In this document: piece by piece, positions 17,781-63,741 of the stretch
Numbering within the stretch: position 1 is the stretch's first letter
How the letters are laid out: each line of letters starts with the position of its first letter
Assembly: GCF_002234675.1 (NCBI RefSeq)
Contig: NC_019859.2
Location: 16,896,311-16,960,310, forward strand
Reading direction: 5' to 3'
Source of the DNA: Oryzias latipes
Lineage: Eukaryota; Chordata; Actinopteri; Beloniformes; Adrianichthyidae
Length of the DNA stretch: 64,000 bases
Translations under genes and position numbers: made by a program
Notes under the pieces: model-generated
Told to the model about the DNA's origin: nothing
The model's input: the letters and a program-made list of their open reading frames with translations, nothing else
Databases searched by the model: none

Positions 17781-20700
17781 ATGAAACCGCCGTGTGATTG
17801 TTGCAGCGAGCATATACAAAAACTGAACCAGCAGGTTTCTGTCATGCGCAAGGAAATAAAAAACCTGAGGTAAGTTGGTGTACTTTGTTTTTTTTTTGGG
17901 GGGGGGGGCTCAAAAAGCCTTGTAAATAGATGCAGGCATTAAATGTGTGTTTCTGTGAGTAGAGCAGTTACATCGATAATATTAACGAGACTGGATCTTT
18001 TCAGGAGTTACATTTATCAGCCCATAGTTCTCATGGTTTGTAGTTTTCTTCTTCCTCTCTTCAGACAGATGCTGGACAGTTCAGTCAGAGCTTTCCGCAA
18101 ACATCTGACCTCAGTTCAGACTGCTGTGTCCAGGATGAGCTGCTGCAAGGAGGAGAAAGCTACAGCACCTGCAGCCGCCTCACCTGCTTCTCCACAGACA
18201 ACTTTAGAGCAAGGTCTATTCTATTCTATTCTATTCTATTCTATTCTATTCTATTCTATTCTAACCTGTTCTTTGTGACAATAAAAGGGGAACAGAGAGA
18301 GAGAAAAACACATAATTTCTGTCCTTTTTACATAATAAATAAAGTTACTGGTACACCTTTTTTCCTTCCCTCAGAAAATAAAAACAAGAAAAAAAATACA
18401 TCAGATATCAAAAACCAACAAATGAGGGTTCCTTAGTTTAAACTCTATAAAACTGTTAAAGATTGACAAAAGAAACCAACCTTTGTGTATATTTTTGTAA
18501 TGTTACATAAAAAAAATACAAAATATGTTTCTTGATTTAGCCTCTGTAATTTGTGACTGAAGGTCACTCTATAACCTCACATCATGTCATTTTTTTAAGT
18601 TGCATGCAATTTTAAATTACAATTACTCTTATTTTTTTCTATTTATTTGTGTATTTTGAGGTTAACATTTATCAAGCACTTTAAACATTCATTTTAAAAT
18701 ACCACAGTTTACTAAATGTGTAAATTTTAATATATTTGATAAAAGGTTGATTGGTCCCCATAGCTACTTCCTGTGATTCATTATCCTTTTGCTTTTTTCT
18801 TTGTAAAATATAAATGTAATTTCTATTAGTCCCCATATTTCATTACAATAGATCAGGTATGAATAATCAATACAATGCATTGGTTTCTTATGACCATGTA
18901 AATTTATATATTTTTATTTAAATATGAGATTTCCAGGAAAGCTGATCACCCATCTAACCATCATGTATATCAATCAGGTGATCATGCATAGTAAATATAG
19001 CTAGACGTCATTTGTTGAAGATGATAATAAAGTTCTTCTTGTTAGAAAGCCAGAATATTGATGTATTAGCTTCAATTTCAGGGATTATCCAGACCACGCC
19101 CATTGGTTTCATTAGTTCCTGTTTCGCCATGAAGAACGGGACTCCCAGGCAGCCCACGGTTTGTGGTCCGTCGCGTGCAGAACTCCGAATCCAGCAGAAC
19201 ATCTTCAACAACCCTCAGCATGCTCTGCTGGGGCTGCAGCAGTTCTCTTACGTCTGGTAGGTTGCAGCGAAATAATAATTTGTGCACACAAAATATTATT
19301 TTTTTGTGAACAAAATAATTTATGTGCACAAAATATTCATTTATGCACACTTAATGTAATCAAAATTCCAATTTGTGGCCACAATGAATTAATTTGATGG
19401 ATTTTTAATGTCTTGTTCAGGGTTTTGTCTTTTCTTTGTAATCACAGATGTTTCTCAGATGTTTCTCTGTTCTCTGTCTAACCAGATTTGTTCTCGTTGG
19501 CCTGATCTAAATGCTGCCTGTGCTCACATAAACAGTTTTTATGGCAGTTCAGTTGCCTTTTCTGAGCAGTGTTTGTCGTTTATTCAGTTTCCATCATTTC
19601 TTCTGCCTTTTGTGTTCTCTCCTGTGTGCAGGATCATTTTTCTCTTTCACAAAAATGGACAACTGAGTTGCAAGGCCAAAGTGAAGCCTCCTCGACTGAA
19701 CGGTCAGAGGGTCGGAGTCTACTCCACCCGCAGTCCACACCGACCAAACGCCTTGGGGCTGACGCTGGCCAAGCTTGACAAAATTGAAAGTGAGTGTCGG
19801 TGAACCAAAATGTAGCTTTTATTCTCTAAGATATTTCTACATCTAATCAGTTAAAACCACTGAGCTTGAAATAACTTTACTTAAAACCATCAGTTTGGGC
19901 AGTTTATCACCTGGCATCAGTGTTACGTGTTACATCTAAAACGGTGACTAAATAAATGACCGTTTCATCGTCAGCGTCTCGGCCTGCTGATGTGAGATAG
20001 CTTAAATAGTTGTTCTGCACTAAAATGATGTGTGAACAGCAGCTCCCATGATGCCTTTCAACTGATGATGTCATCAGATAGAACTTTCAACTATAAAATA
20101 ACCAATTTTTACTAATTCATTTTTGAATACAGACTTGAGGTAAATTGTTTTAAATTCCTTTTTGTTTTTTACCTTTTAGGACACCAGCTTAAAAGTTTAC
20201 ATTTGAGCGTGTATGAAAGGTTTCATTAACTATTTTGAGACCACTATAACTAGAAAAAGACATTATTACTTATTGAAAGCGTATGATCTGCATTTGTTTT
20301 GTTGGTAGGTCATGCACACAAACAGAGAGCAGATTGAGTCTGAAAAAAATGACCATAAAATGCCACAACCTTCCTTGTTTTTTTTTGTGTTTTTTTTTTC
20401 AAATGTCAGGATCCTTTCTGCCCATTTGATGATTTATGGACTTTAAATCATCATCTGGTTTTTGGGAATTTAATTGATCTTTTCATTATTTTTGTGACAC
20501 GCTGAAATATTCGTAAAGTTAATTTGTTTTGAAGAGGTTTTGACATCATGAAGGTCTGATTTAAGAACTAAGCTGAAGTTAAAATGCTTTCTTTTCATTT
20601 TTATTCTTCTTGAGGTGACACATTATACCTGTCAGATATTGACATGATTGCCGGTACGCCGGTCCTGGACATCAAACCCTACATACCCGACTACGACTGT

Positions 20701-21512
20701 CCGGACGTCAGGATGAGCCTGGAATCCCAGCAGACAGACTCAGATCAAAATATTGGAGCTCCTGGTGACCTGGACACAGAGAAGAATCCTGTAAAGTCTG
20801 ATGAAGATGAGGAAACGGATGCTCCAGGGAATGTTACAGAAATAAATGCTGAGGTTCTTCCGACAAAAAACTGCTGTAAAAAGGAAACTTCTCCACTGAG
20901 CACTCAGGTTTCTGCTCCTAAACACCTTCAGAATGTACTGAAGGAGGTCGAGGCCTTTGTGACCCACATAGACACCTGTCAACCGTCCTGTGAGAGCAAG
21001 ATCCAGGTTTCAGACTCTGCGAAGTCAAAACCAGCAGGTCTGAGCACGGAACGCCCCTGCTATGGTGTGGAGGCTGCTAGATGGATCAGACAGCCTCCTA
21101 TTGCCAGTCTGGATGTGCGCTTTACCCCACGGGCGGAGAGCCAGTTGGCAGAGTTCCTTCCTGCGCACCCATCAGGTGAGCAGAGACTAAGTCCCCATCA
21201 GAGAGGGCTGTTGTGATTCACACAGGTCAGAAAAGTGAGAGTCTGAAAAGCCCAAGCCGTTCTGTTTCTTCCACAGGAGCTCCTGGCAGCGACAGACCCG
21301 GGTTCCAGTTCCTGCGCAGTACAGACGAAGCAGCTTCTGCCATCAGGGGGATCCTGTCAGCCGACCCGAGGTCGGTGTACAGGAGAACTCGCTGCAAGGA
21401 CAGGCTCTTCTTCTTCACTTTGGACACAGCTGACGTCACATGCTGGTTTGGGGAAGACTTTGCTGAAGTTCTGCAGGTTCGACCCGTTCAGAGCCACATG
21501 AAGAGTTATTAA
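17781..21512 (+). CDS. trmo: tRNA (adenine(37)-N6)-methyltransferase, 6 exons, 455 aa
   Basis: Exons 17781-17869, 18065-18213, 19082-19256, 19632-19789, 20615-21175 and 21277-21512 are in phase throughout (1,368 nt). The first 79 residues form a short coiled N-terminus (HIQKLNQQVSVMRKEIKNLR). The TsaA/YaeB-like SAM-binding domain follows: TPIGFISSCFAMKNGTPRQP, GLQQFSYVW, FLFHKNGQLSCKAKVKPPRL, the family hallmark YSTRSPHRPNALGLTLAKL (about 167-185) and DMIAGTPVLDIKPYIPDYD. The fifth exon adds an acidic, variable linker before a C-terminal domain (DVRFTPRAESQLAEF; RRTRCKDRLFFFTLDTADV). Family knowledge: the cytosolic enzyme uses SAM to methylate N6 of t6A37 in certain tRNAs, giving m6t6A. Human TRMO has 441 aa. 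The polyA signal AATAAA is at 21613-21618. The donor of exon 2 abuts a (TATTC)n repeat. Confidence 0.95.
18214..18262. repeat. (TATTC)n pentanucleotide microsatellite at a trmo donor site
   Basis: About nine CTATT units begin directly at the intron-2 donor (GTCTATTCTATT). Its place within 2 bp of the exon end is unusual. Confidence 0.9.
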
Positions 21513-35279: not shown

Positions 35280-36365
35280 TTAAATTGCAGAAACAAACCG
35301 GTCAATGTTCCCTGTGTAAGTGGGGTGTCTTAGGTATCCCCCAGTATTGGTGATCGGCCCTGGACTGTTGTAGTGAGAGAAGGAGCCTAGCTGCACTGGG
35401 GAGACCCTGCCATAGTGGTCCATCGTCTCTGCGGGGCCGTGAGCTGAGGCGTGGATCCGGCCAGCTGGTGGGTAGCTCTGTGTCGAGCCCTGTCCGTAGG
35501 AGCTCTGGTGGTGATGCGAATGGCTGCTCGGTGCAGAGTAGTTGAATCCTGGGTGTGCCGTGGAGCGGGGAGCCACCGTCCCCCCACATGACTGACCTTG
35601 ATAGCTGGGAGCTCCTAAGCCACAGGGCGTTGACCCGTTCATGAGTCCCTCTGGACTGAAGGTCCGACTGGGCTGCTGCATGCCGTCTACCCCTTGGTTG
35701 GCCAGCATGCTGGCTGCAGAAGGGTGTCCTATGATGTTGTTGATGCTGAACATGCGGGTCTGACTGTGAGCAAACCCAGGCGGGGATGGAGAGGGGTAAT
35801 AGGCAGAGGGCAGCTGCTGCCCGTAGGTGGGGCTGACAGTCATGTTTGGGTAGACCGGGTTGGAGTATGCAGCTGACCTGGGGATCTGGACGGGAGAGAA
35901 AACCGGCGTGTCGTGGACGTATGAGGCATAGGTGCTGAGGTCGCAGCGCTTAAACCTCTTCCTGCGCCGCAGAAAGCTGCCGCTCTCAAACATGTCCTCT
36001 GCATTTGGGTCCAGGGCCCAGTAGTTGCCCTTTCCAGGCCGTCCTGGCTCACGGGGGATCTTGATGAAGCAATCGTTGAGCGTCAGGTTGTGGCGGATGG
36101 AGTTTTGCCACTTCTTCGAATTGTCTCTGTAGAAGGGGAATCGCTCTGTGATGAATTTATAGATGCCTCCTAGTGTCAGCTTGCGATCGGGGGAATTGGC
36201 TATAGCCATGGAAATGAGAGCGATGTAGCTGTAGGGGGGTTTTCCTCGTTGGAGGGGTCTCTTCCTCCTTCGGCCTCTCGGTTGCTCCTCTGTCTGCGGT
36301 GGAGGGTCAGAGGTCGGCAAAACAGCATCTGATTGAGAGTCCTTTTCAACCTTGACAACTGGCAT
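35280..36365 (-). CDS. foxe1: Forkhead box protein E1, intronless, 361 aa
   Basis: A single open frame from ATG at 36365 to TAA. The forkhead domain is residues 42-135: [15 protein letters not shown], the [20 protein letters not shown] helix region, recognition helix [13 protein letters not shown] (88-100), wing [19 protein letters not shown] and [10 protein letters not shown]. The basic [13 protein letters not shown] just before it, and the RRRKRFKR just after, act as nuclear signals in the family. The tail is rich in Ser/Pro/Tyr/His. The N-terminus has VKVE (4-7), a SUMO-type motif; human FOXE1 has VKEE in a similar place. FOXE1 is a DNA-binding transcription factor for thyroid and foregut/palate development. 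Like its mammalian orthologue it is a single-exon gene. It lies tail-to-tail with spag5. Human FOXE1 has a poly-alanine run that is absent here. Confidence 0.97.
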
Positions 36366-39300
36366 CTTGGACAGATGAACAAAAGTGTCCTCAGAAGAGA
36401 GAAACTTAAATTTATGGCACCAATAGTTCCTTCAGCGCTCCTTTATCTAAAGTGAACTAAACAAGGTCCCAAACAACAAAAATAAATAAAAGACATCTGC
36501 CCATCAATCTCTTGCTAAAGAGTTTTTGACAACTCACAGTCTTTGAGTCCAGAAAATCTTCTTGAAAATGCAGGAGAAGCAATTCAGCTTTTCAGACTAA
36601 AGTTTCATGAAGTAGTGATCCCTCTCCGGCTGTGTTCCATTGTTTGCTGTCAGCTTAGGTTGAAGAGTTGAGCTGTGAACGCACCATTTGCAGTGCTGAA
36701 GGTGTGAGAGCCAGTGAGTCACCCAGTTACCTGAAGAGAGTATTACCTGCCCAGACAGCCGGAGAGCTCCGCCTCCGCTCCCCGCATACCTCACCTATCA
36801 TAAAGCTTGTTAAAGTTATCTTTAAGGAAGTTTTATTAAATTAAGAAAATATAATAGCTTTTTTTTTGTATTGTAAAACATTTAGCCCTTGAAAATATCT
36901 TTAGTCTGTAGTTGATTTAAAATAAAAATATTTGTGATTACAGCTCTCCAAACATTTATTTTAGCTGTTAAGAGCTGGAACTGTTTCCTCTTTTTATTCA
37001 AATTTTTTCTTAAAGCTGACCTCAGTTTATTTTAAAAAGTCTGAAATGGTCTATGTTGTTTTGACGTTTAACACTAAAACACCTCTTTAGTGGTAACTTA
37101 ACCTACGGGTTGTTTTTCTATCTTGCTTCCTTGTTTGTTTTGTGCCAGTGGTTGGACAAGCCAGCTGTGTTAAGAGATGTAAATGTTGTCCAGACAAAGA
37201 CTCTCCTGTGATTTCAGCATGCAAAATACAGACCAGGACGCAATCTGAACCTGAAACTGGAGGGGAGAGAAGGATGATCCAATATTGACCAGTGAGTTGG
37301 AAATGGCTCCATTTGAGAAAAGCTGCAGCAAGACAATTTCAGTGTCACAGATCATCCTTTTTTATCTAAAATCTGCCAGATCCATCCCTAAACCACCGCA
37401 GGTCTCTCCCAGACTCTGCGGTTTGAGGTGGTGCCGATCCCGTGTGCTTTTCTGGTGGTTTTGAAGTTGCAGGACGGGGTTCACCCACCCAAAGCTTTTA
37501 ACCAAACAGAGTAAAAGCCAGCAGCACACTCCCACTACTCAACAGCAGAATGGGTTCAGGCTGCAGGCATGTGTCAGAGCCGCTGCAGAGAAAGACCCAG
37601 AGAGCTGGTTTGCTTAGACAAACAGCCCGATGAAAAGTTAATTCCTCTAGGAAGGTCTGTGGAGCTTGTGGAGCAGCAGCACCCTGTTTTGGGATCGATG
37701 GGTGTGGTATGTGATAAGACGAGGGTAACGATGAAATCCAAACCTGTTTGGTTTTGTTGGAAGAATTTTTTATCACTTTGAGTAATTGGAAAAGGGAAAA
37801 AAGTGTATTTTAGGGAGGGCATAAAAATTGAAAGATCAAAAACTGAATTTTTTTCCATTTTATGTTTCAGTGAAACTTCTTTTTACAAAACTTTTTTGCA
37901 CAGATAAACTTCACTGCGATTGAGCAAAAAAGTCCTTTTGTTGGTGCTCTGAGGAAAAATTCCTAATTAAATGTATTCCCACAACAAATAGCTAAAACTG
38001 GATCTAGAGCAGAATTCTGCAACCATATACTAAAAGAGGCATTCGGGGCTGTTTCATACTGATCAAAACCTAGTAGGAGCCACAAAATCTTTAAAAAATT
38101 GAATACAGCTTTTGCATTCATTTGTATTGTCGTTACTTTTGAAATATGCATGAATTATATTTCTATTTTTGCATGAATAAAAACAGAAATATGCAGAGAA
38201 AAATAATTTTCTGTAAATATATATACATTTTGTAACTTTTGACAGAGGCTCGTGTGGCTTTCTTTCAAAAATAAAAGACATCCTGTGCCACACAGGATCA
38301 TCCCACTGAAGCTAATGTTCTCCAATGAAAGGTTTTAAACAACAAAGTAAAAATTGGCATTTTCTCTGTCAACTTTTTCCCTATTTACTACTGTTGTTAA
38401 CCTAAACATGACTATTGGTTTATGAACCAATAGAACTAGTTTAAAGACTGAAAAGAAATTCTTAACAACTGTCTTCTGTGTAGTTAATAACCATTGTTGT
38501 GACACAAAACAGAGTCATAAAAAGAGTGATAAGAGAAGATCAAATCTGTTGCTAAAGTAATCTCTGCACAATGGTAAAGGAATGGGAGAGCACAGCACAG
38601 TGTAATGTCAGCAGAACTAATCTAAATTAAATCGATGTTGACAAAGTCATTTTTAAAATCCCTGGCTACTATCTTATTTTTCTTTAACCAGCGAGCCACT
38701 ATGGAGGGCTAACAGCCACTGGTGGGTCTGGAGCCTCATGTTGCAGACCCCCATGTTTACGTAGAATTATATACAATAAAGATGGTTCCGCATGCCGTTG
38801 ACACTTTTTTCACACATTTTTATGTGTACGGTAATTGTGTTTCATGATTTATCAAATGAGCAATAATAATTGTGCTCTTGTAAACCTGATGCTGTGTTGA
38901 CCCTTTTTTGGGAGCAGCAATCATATTATTGTTAAAAAAATCTGTTTTCAGTTAGTATTTACAGGTAAATGAATAAGGAAGTAGACAAAGATCGGGTTAT
39001 TTGAAATTTATTAAATAAAAAATCTGATCCTATAACACTTGAATACTATGAACTCTTCAGAAACTAAAATGGTTTTATGACATTTGTATTTGATTTGTAA
39101 TATCGTGTTTAGTCGTCCCTATCGTCACAAGACCATGACTGCTATTTATCCACCCAAGCCTCTGACAGGTTTGATTGACATGTAATGCAGTTTGCAGCAG
39201 ACCTCACCATTTGCTTCTTATGCTCGATGGTGATGAACAATCAGCGGTGAGTAACTTCTCTGGTACTTGTTGATACTGGAGCTCAGGCTTACATTTGTCA

Positions 39301-61169: not shown

Positions 61170-61366
61170 TTAGTGGGGCAACGGCACAAGGATATCCACA
61201 TAGTTGATGGGAAAAAAGCCTGAGTTGCCATGCAGCATCCCTTCGTACCAGTTGTCGTCGATCTTATTGGTCAGAGTGATGATATCGCCTTCCTTGAAAC
61301 CTAGCTCCCCTTCATTCTCAGGGTCAAAATCGTACAGCGCACGACAGGAGGGCTGGTCCAAGGGGG
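61170..61366 (-). CDS. sh3gl2: Endophilin-A (SH3GL2-like), final exon with SH3 domain
   Basis: Acceptor TCTCCAG precedes 61366; the exon opens in phase 1 and encodes [19 protein letters not shown] and on to a stop after LVPLPH. SH3 landmarks: [26 protein letters not shown] and SGFFPINYV, which bind proline-rich motifs in dynamin and synaptojanin during synaptic vesicle endocytosis. [12 protein letters not shown] and the LPH end are closest to human SH3GL2 (endophilin A1), while the preceding PLDQPSC is like SH3GL1. The BAR-domain exons must lie beyond the right edge. The A1 assignment is likely but not certain, and which fish duplicate (a or b) cannot be told. Confidence 0.85.
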
Positions 61367-61457: not shown

Positions 61458-61469
61458 CTGGAGACCTGG
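61458..61469 (-). CDS. sh3gl2: Endophilin 12-nt microexon 1 (encodes A-R-S-P)
   Basis: Minus-strand CCAGGTCTCCAG is flanked by an acceptor with a long pyrimidine tract (TCTTTTTCCC..TTGCAG) and donor GTGAGCT. The length of 12 keeps the phase 1 frame of the SH3 exon 91 bp downstream, giving (G)CC-AGG-TCT-CCA-(G). A UGC sits beside the acceptor, the kind of motif used by the neuronal microexon factor SRRM4. Probably an optional exon in the linker before SH3. Confidence 0.6.
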
Positions 61470-62548
61470 CTGCAAGAGGGAAAAAGACAAAGAGATTCAA
61501 ATCACGAGTCAGTGAACAGGTTCTCTTAATCAGAGTTAGGAGGAGCAGGTCAATATTTAAGGGAATATAGTTGTGTGGGAGAGTTAGATGAGAGAATGTA
61601 GTCTTTTTTTTCCTATGTAATTCTTTCACAATTGACAGAAGACAACAAAGACTAATATGTTGAATTTTGTGAAGGAAAAACTTGTTTATTTCTGTCAGAT
61701 GTCTGGATCCTTTTATAAAAGTTAGAGAGCAGCCTTGTCTCTCTATCTGTCCTTGTGCAGGTCCAGATATAAATACTGTCTTTCATCTATTCGAAGATAA
61801 ACACATGTGTTTTTTTTAATACTTTACAAATGTTGACCTAAAGTTTTTGAACAAGACAGCAAAAATGCTGATTTCTTTCTTTGAGATGATTTATTAGGTC
61901 ATCACAGCAGAATGCTACTTTGAGACTCTTTTTTGCTATTTTGCCTTCAGTCTGTGAAAGAGCATGTTCTGTTGCACTGAAATCACATGGATGGACTGGC
62001 TTGTGGGATTTTACCATTTTATTGTAGTAAAATCCCACATGCCAGCATCGAAAGATGATTAACTTTAAATACCCGCTCTGATCATCTTATGATCTGCTGT
62101 AAAAGTGTAGTGGTCAAAACATGCTACTTATATCCTGACTGCTGTTTCAATGCATAAAAAAAGGCTACATAATTTACTTTTTTCATTTTACTTATCTACC
62201 AAGTCTGTTTCTATGAACTTTTTCGTACAGTTTAGTGTTTTGGGATTATTTGCAGAAAAATACTGTTTTCTGCACCTGTATTGAGAAGTTCTCAGGCAAT
62301 CATGGACAAGTGAAAACATAGAAATGTAAATCCCATGTTGAATTGTATTATAAATGTAAATAATTCCAAAGCAAAAACCCAAATATACTAAATGAGAGTT
62401 CACTAAATTATTCTGTTTTTTTTCTTTTTTACTTTTCTAACTTCCTGGAAAGTTATGTACGCTGTGTGTGTACTGGGTCTAATGCTGCTTTCACACTGGG
62501 CTTCTTGGGCAAAACAAATAACTTTCTATCCTTGTTTGGAGAAAAAAA

Positions 62549-63245
62549 TACAATGGAGGAAATAAGCATTTGATCCCTTGCTGATTTTGTTGTTTTTCCC
62601 ACCTAAAAAGAAATTGACCCTCTGCCATGTTAAGGTCATTTGAACGGTGAGAGACAGAAAATCACAAAGAAAATCAAGACATCAACTCTAAATAATTTAT
62701 ATACATTTAATTGCATTTCATTGAGGGAAATATGTATTTGATCCCATAGTAAGAGTTCAGGTTCACACAGACCAGTAAGACTCTCCTCATCAACCTGTCA
62801 CCTGTATTGCAGACACCCGTTTGCACTAATCACCTGTAGAAAAAACACCTGTCCACAGAATCAGTCAGACTTCAAACTCTCCAACATGGGAAAGACTAAA
62901 GAGCTTTCAGTGGATTTAAGGAAGAAGGTTGAAGACCTGCACAAGACCAGAATAGAATACCAAACACTATATCAGCTAGAAGCTGGGGGTCTAGATGACA
63001 ACTGTTGATTTGATTGTCCATGACCATCAATCCACCTATAGGTCTCAGACTCATAACAAAATCTTCAACATTCTTGTGAGAGATAGGCTTTAAACAACAT
63101 GGCAGGAGTTAGTTAATGATCTCAAAGCAGCTGGGACCACAGTCATCAAGAAAACCAATGGTTGCAAAGTACTCCTGCTTACGAGGGCACATACTGTGTG
63201 CAGGCCCGCCTGACGTTTGCCCATGAACAACTTGATGATTTAAAG
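62549..63245 (+). mobile_element. Tc1-like transposon remnant in an endophilin intron
   Basis: It starts at TA with the typical end CAATGGAGGAAATAAGCATT..TGATCCC; a second such motif, AATATGTATTTGATCCCAT, lies near 62730. From 62886 the transposase start is readable: MGKTKELSVDLRKKVEDLHK (with small changes). Later blocks match 'HGRSL..LKAAGTTVIKKTN' (near 63120) and ARTYCVQARLTFAHEQLDD (near 63185). The middle and the right inverted end are missing. Confidence 0.8.
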
Positions 63246-63441
63246 TCAATTTCTTGATTATCTTTCATCGTTATTTTCTTTCTCGTATTGTTTAAATGAA
63301 CCTCTCATTGGGAAGAGAGACAGTCAGCTCTTCTCCAAGTGGGTAAACCTACAATATCAGCAACTTATTTCCTCAAGTGTGTGTTTGTGTGTATTTATTT
63401 AATCTTTTTCTGACACAGTTGTCACTAAGATCTCATCTCAC

Positions 63442-63462
63442 CTGGATCCGCAAATAAAGAGT
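63442..63462 (-). CDS. sh3gl2: Candidate 21-nt microexon of endophilin
   Basis: Minus-strand ACTCTTTATTTGCGGATCCAG lies between GGGGTTATAG and GTGAGATGAG. The donor is strong and the acceptor tract weak. Length 21 and phase 1 keep the linker frame, giving D-S-L-F-A-D-P, and it ends in CCAG like the two 12-nt microexons. May be chance. Confidence 0.4.
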
Positions 63463-63729
63463 CTATAACCCCAAAAATATCTATATTGTGACAGCAGCTG
63501 CAGGTTTAATATCCAGACAGAAAGCTTTCATCCTCTCATCTGACTCTGAGCAAACAAGCACATTTCCCAAAAATGTTCAGTTAACAAAAAACAAAGGAGA
63601 AAACAGGAGTTAGAAAGAAACAGCACTGCACTGCAAGCAAGAATGCAGACGGAAAAAACACACGTGAAAGAAAAAAAAATAAGAGTGACAGTGAGACTTT
63701 GGATGTCTCCCATAGTCACTCTTTCTCAC

Positions 63730-63741
63730 CTGGAGATCTTG
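63730..63741 (-). CDS. sh3gl2: Endophilin 12-nt microexon 2 (encodes x-R-S-P)
   Basis: Minus-strand CAAGATCTCCAG sits between the pyrimidine-rich acceptor TTTTCCCTCCTCTTACAG (with CTGC just upstream) and donor GTGAGAAAG. It differs from the microexon at 61458 at only two of 12 bases and uses the same phase, so both together would give RSP-A-RSP-A before the SH3 exon. Confidence 0.6.

Follow-up and report, generated by a model that had tools for sequence, protein, structure and literature searches.

Four predicted Ala-Arg-Ser-Pro microexons may tune the linker of a medaka endophilin A gene

Results

An endophilin A gene at the window end

The stretch of Oryzias latipes DNA analysed here (64,000 nucleotides of contig NC_019859.2, referred to as the window) contains exons of a tRNA-methyltransferase O gene on the plus strand (19393-19800 and 20614-21213; TrmO_N) and, on the minus strand, a forkhead gene in a single long open frame (35283-36431; Pfam Forkhead, 9.3e-38), which we take to be FOXE1-like. 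A third gene, also on the minus strand, extends beyond the window end. Its last coding exon (61170-61366) encodes an SH3 domain followed by the stop codon (Pfam SH3_1, 2.8e-16), with the Endophilin-A1 SH3 structure 2knb as phmmer match (6.1e-35). We located the exons of this gene one at a time, in tblastn searches with a human SH3GL2 query. Eight other coding exons were read and form one open frame; the first coding exon, corresponding to the N-terminal helix, was not found by tblastn with this query.

The BAR exons, linker and C-terminal SH3 domain reproduce the architecture of the endophilin A family, and Pfam, phmmer and tblastn agree with the earlier note, made from the letters of the window alone, that the exon at 61170-61366 is an endophilin SH3 exon. 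The best phmmer match of the BAR region is the SH3GL2 structure 1zww (2.7e-116), with 392 bits for SH3GL2 against 324.5 for SH3GL3; none of the 60 matches shown is an A2 BAR chain. The SH3 domain itself scores nearly equally against A1 and A2 (124.8 and 122.4 bits). An early BAR exon (window-equivalent 67403-67471) seems to use a GC donor, AAAAG/GCACGT.

Four short in-frame elements between the linker exon and the SH3 exon

The earlier note had proposed two 12-nt minus-strand microexons ahead of the SH3 exon. Both elements are present at the coordinates that it gave: ME4 at 61458-61469 (CCAGGTCTCCAG; acceptor 9.7, donor 7.0 bits) and ME3 at 63730-63741 (CAAGATCTCCAG; acceptor 8.6, donor 6.9 bits). 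They agree at 10 of 12 bases, are preceded directly by TGCAG or TACAG and followed directly by GTGAG, and each has 91% pyrimidine at positions -25 to -4. Both fit, without introducing a stop, into the phase-1 intron that precedes the SH3 exon. Exons of 12 nt share a phase automatically, hence the common phase of the two is no evidence in itself; the weight lies instead on the missing stops and the common Ala-Arg-Ser-Pro (ARSP) reading.

Reading the same genome past the window end reveals two further elements, which begin 111 and 253 bases beyond it: ME2 (window-equivalent 64111-64122; 12 nt, CAAGGTCTCCAG, ARSP; acceptor 9.1, donor 6.9 bits) and ME1 (window-equivalent 64253-64267; 15 nt, GTGCCAGGTCTCCAG; acceptor 7.0, donor 7.0 bits), a copy with an additional Gly that reads GARSP. 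The original pair is thus part of a four-copy array, contained in the 3.2 kb that separate the linker exon from the SH3 exon and running, in the direction of transcription, as elements of 15, 12, 12 and 12 nt that encode GARSP, ARSP, ARSP and ARSP. The linker exon (window-equivalent 64529-64644) carries an ARSP unit at its own end, ahead of the array; it ends GGMHG-ARSP-G, followed by gtgag. The proposal of a duplicated microexon that would lengthen the BAR-SH3 linker in ARSP steps, with one Ser-Pro per copy, is therefore supported in part, with the copy number corrected from two to four, the first copy adding a Gly, and the series of ARSP units starting already in the linker exon.

All four elements are in frame and phase 1, so that any subset joins cleanly, and each of the 16 include/skip combinations yields a single frame that stays open as far as the stop codon of the SH3 exon. 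Since ME2, ME3 and ME4 are identical at the protein level, the 16 splice forms correspond to 8 proteins. Depending on the combination, the linker would measure 47 to 64 residues (between linker bounds that we set ourselves) and contain 8 to 12 Lys and Arg residues and 1 to 5 Ser-Pro sites. ME4 and ME1 each contain an inner AG at which splicing could produce a frame-shifting exon of only 8 nt (14.5 bits for ME4 and 13.0 bits for ME1). The intron between ME3 and ME4 also contains a dispersed repeat on the minus strand (searched stretch 62545-63250, ends approximate), with at least 49 matches in its own genome, this copy included; the nearest other copy is 86% identical among the matches listed, for which 40 of 830 first-look candidates were scored.

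Splice-site scans and motif searches argue against chance

Units this short might resemble each other by chance, particularly as the CAG/GTGAG end is itself splice consensus. We scanned for short exons with weights that approximate vertebrate consensus splice-site frequencies, requiring at least 5 bits each for acceptor and donor, at least 12 bits in total, a length divisible by 3 and no stop, all thresholds being our own. Both strands of the window (128 kb) contain only two candidates at this level, ME3 and ME4. The 3.2-kb interval contains four in-frame candidates, and all of them encode (G)ARSP; lowering the cut-off to 6 bits adds only a 24-nt extension of ME1. For four such candidates to arise by chance, a rough Poisson estimate gives 1.6e-9, subject to the thresholds being ours.

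When candidates of any length were admitted at 12 bits or more in 456 kb of background strands (the window included), seven matches were found. Three of them are ME3, ME4 and an 8-nt version of ME4; the remaining four lie elsewhere and measure 27, 30, 7 and 8 nt. Beyond ME3 and ME4, this background holds no 12- or 15-nt candidate at 12 bits or more; at lower cut-offs, such candidates do occur elsewhere, two at 10 bits or more and six at 8 bits or more. Furthermore, a search of the 25-contig, 734-Mb genome for the 20-base motif YAGCMAGRTCTCCAGGTGAG returned three places without mismatch, all in this gene. ME1 differs from the motif by two mismatches because the bases ahead of its last 12 are exonic. 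Allowing up to two mismatches gave 27 matches, compared to 9 for the reversed control pattern; the microexons account for four of the 27. The sole one-mismatch match elsewhere, on C13, has no pyrimidine tract ahead of it. Seven of the other 22 places, each with two mismatches, fell within the scanned background, where one (L029) corresponds to an 8-nt candidate of 14.0 bits.

The copies are also far more alike than their surroundings. When the final 12 nt of each copy are compared, 65 of 72 pairwise positions agree (90%), compared to 116 of 408 (28%) in the sampled flanks (-60 to -27 and +7 to +40), a value near the level of unrelated sequence, and the copies share one peptide and one frame. 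Taken together, the splice scans, the genome-wide motif search and the divergence of the flanks lead us to reject chance resemblance, to which we assign a very low likelihood, and the four predicted microexons are very probably real exons.

Probable duplication and coding constraint

Local alignment of the flanks revealed no excess over shuffled sequence in 10 of 12 comparisons. The two exceptions are the downstream flanks of ME2 and ME3 (no shuffle of 200 reaches the observed score) and those of ME3 and ME4 (3 of 200), and these suggest that some copies may be younger. Among the five ARSP units, i.e. the end of the linker exon and the four microexons, three columns vary, with at least five changes, all synonymous, where about 31% of random changes would be expected to be so; the four microexons alone show two variable columns and two changes. 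As most of the sampled flanking intron sequence is no more alike than background, we infer that the copies arose by duplication and have been selected for coding, with the evidence for selection coming from within one genome.

This pattern bears on the possibility that the elements function at the pre-mRNA stage, with little or no inclusion in mature mRNA, and influence how the 3.2-kb intron is removed by serving as decoy or recursive splice sites. Their splice signals are strong, and ME1 starts with GT directly after the acceptor AG, as a recursive site would. However, a role in splicing alone would not require that ARSP coding be conserved and all changes be synonymous. The interval is also short for recursion, and the GTGCCA that follows the acceptor of ME1 matches the donor consensus poorly. 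We therefore regard a purely pre-mRNA role as very unlikely.

The array is found in one of five endophilin A genes

Five endophilin A genes were found in this genome. The SH3 exons of the other four are 89, 80, 70 and 69% identical to that of the array-containing gene, with the next best match at 47%. Among the five, ARSP microexons are seen in this gene only, within the stretches scanned. The closest paralogue, C18 (L014), has a linker exon that ends AKSP-GRSP-G, corresponding to two such units, and no microexon; its last intron (640 nt) contains no candidate at a cut-off of 6 bits. The last intron of C4, where the linker exon ends SRNP-G as read by eye, contains one 21-nt candidate at 6 bits, which does not code for ARSP. 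No candidate was found at 6 bits in C17, where the linker exon was not located and the scan ran from the exon before it up to the SH3 exon. For C3, only the SH3 exon was located; the 29.7 kb upstream of it contain three candidates at 6 bits, none of them ARSP-coding. Pattern searches of prokaryotic and viral contigs, collections not aimed at fish, returned 139 and 44 stretches, respectively, with no confirmed relative. It may be that in C18 a similar state is hard-wired through the two units built into its linker exon.

Splicing features and the question of regulation

All four predicted exons have the length (3-27 nt), frame and splice-site scores of microexons. The zones free of AG ahead of their acceptors extend over 57, 119, 128 and 51 nt. 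An AG-free zone of at least 51 nt, a cut-off picked after seeing the data, is found for 4 of 4 microexons but for only 4 of 25 other acceptors, none of which reaches 119 nt. The comparison set represents 25 of 26 acceptors listed from four endophilin genes (one C17 pattern was not found); the list omits the linker-exon acceptor for C18, C4 and C17 and the SH3 acceptor for C17, and no C3 acceptor is on it. UGC within 40 nt of the acceptor is not enriched, occurring in 3 of 4 microexons and 15 of 25 other acceptors. Of the two features associated with SRRM3/SRRM4 (eMIC) control, the array thus displays the long AG exclusion zone and lacks the UGC enrichment. Neural control of the array is hence plausible as judged from these features.

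The microexons might nevertheless be constitutive, with the full GARSP-ARSP-ARSP-ARSP series present in nearly all transcripts and no regulatory use. The strong acceptor and GTGAG donor that each of the four possesses would fit such a situation, as would the AKSP-GRSP of C18, placed within a linker exon where no microexon candidate accompanies it. Exons this short are, in contrast, usually hard to include without special help. The long AG-free zones further resemble those of regulated microexons, with long AG exclusion zones reported for eMIC-dependent fly exons in the accessible part of PMC8797185. On balance we consider constitutive inclusion unlikely, if considerably less so than a pre-mRNA role, and alternative, graded inclusion probable.

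Discussion

The explanation we favour overall, at a probability of about 0.62, is that the gene contains a four-copy array of (Gly-)Ala-Arg-Ser-Pro microexons that are variably included and tune the linker between the BAR and SH3 domains. The microexons would be alternatively included, probably more so in neurons, so that cell types or stages would differ in their total of ARSP steps, to which the linker exon contributes one and the array zero to four. Because ME2 to ME4 encode the same residues, only the number used would matter for the protein, and not which. With every step the linker would gain 4-5 disordered residues, a single positive charge and one Ser-Pro site. Inclusion could thereby tune the reach of the SH3 domain from the membrane-bound BAR dimer, as well as how strongly the linker restrains BAR-driven assembly, and proline-directed kinases, putatively acting at the Ser-Pro sites, could cancel the added charge as a second layer. 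The kinase and assembly steps of this scheme are inferential. That the array mainly tunes linker length, charge and phosphorylation is put forward tentatively. We are similarly cautious about the idea of a splicing counter, in which the number of exons included, rather than their identity, would set linker length, charge and Ser-Pro content and so provide graded BAR-SH3 coupling at synapses.

Published work on the endophilin linker, so far as the available sections extend, is consistent with such a role. The linker is described as disordered and bearing modification sites, with linker swaps altering function (PMC12457278), and it has been reported to restrain BAR-driven phase separation (PMC9418313). 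According to the portion available of PMC8065113, endophilin partners, dynamin and CRMP4 among them, are targets of Cdk5 and GSK3beta.

Several known systems resemble the array in part. SRRM3/SRRM4-dependent (eMIC) neural microexons are likewise 3-27 nt long and in frame, have a strong pyrimidine tract and a long AG-free zone, and occur in vesicle-traffic genes, but the four medaka elements differ from these in being mutual copies that encode one peptide and in showing no UGC enrichment. Fast skeletal troponin T contains alternatively spliced small exons, among them the short P exons that are repeated in birds; as in the array, a run of short in-frame exons would vary a repetitive stretch, albeit in a different gene and tissue. 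In zebrafish, a larger share of lineage-specific microexons has evolved, with endocytosis among the enriched terms, according to the available text of PMC12626424. RPS24 provides a case of consecutive microexons in one vertebrate gene, with 3, 18 and 22 bp microexons between exons 4 and 6 that are variously combined (PMC11162997, as far as accessible); their unlike lengths set them apart from an array in which a single copied unit encodes the same peptide each time. The schistosome micro-exon genes, as presented in the accessible part of PMC4015677, share with the array the presence of many tiny exons and the generation of protein variants by differential splicing. In those genes as much as 75% of the coding sequence can consist of microexons, and the products are mostly secreted proteins of the parasite, whereas here four microexons are set into a conserved BAR-SH3 protein.

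Single neural microexons are thus known already, as are groups of unlike microexons such as those of RPS24 (PMC11162997, in its available text). The endophilin B exon described in the accessible parts of PMC8797185 (EndoB) and PMC13387927 (SH3GLB1) belongs to another gene. Among the open-licence literature matches listed, and within the text available for each, we found no description of an endophilin A linker microexon or of an array of copied endophilin microexons that encode one repeat; the available parts of PMC11445533, PMC13387927, PMC12559242 and PMC2447309 contain nothing bearing on an endophilin A linker exon. Such short exons easily escape annotation, and some of the four may already be annotated in public gene models.

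Endophilin is central to synaptic vesicle recycling. Where single microexons behave much as on/off switches, an array of interchangeable microexons, if true, would amount to a stepwise dial on a disordered linker. This would make testable both the role of the little-characterised endophilin linker and the effect of the number of identical Ser-Pro steps that it contains.
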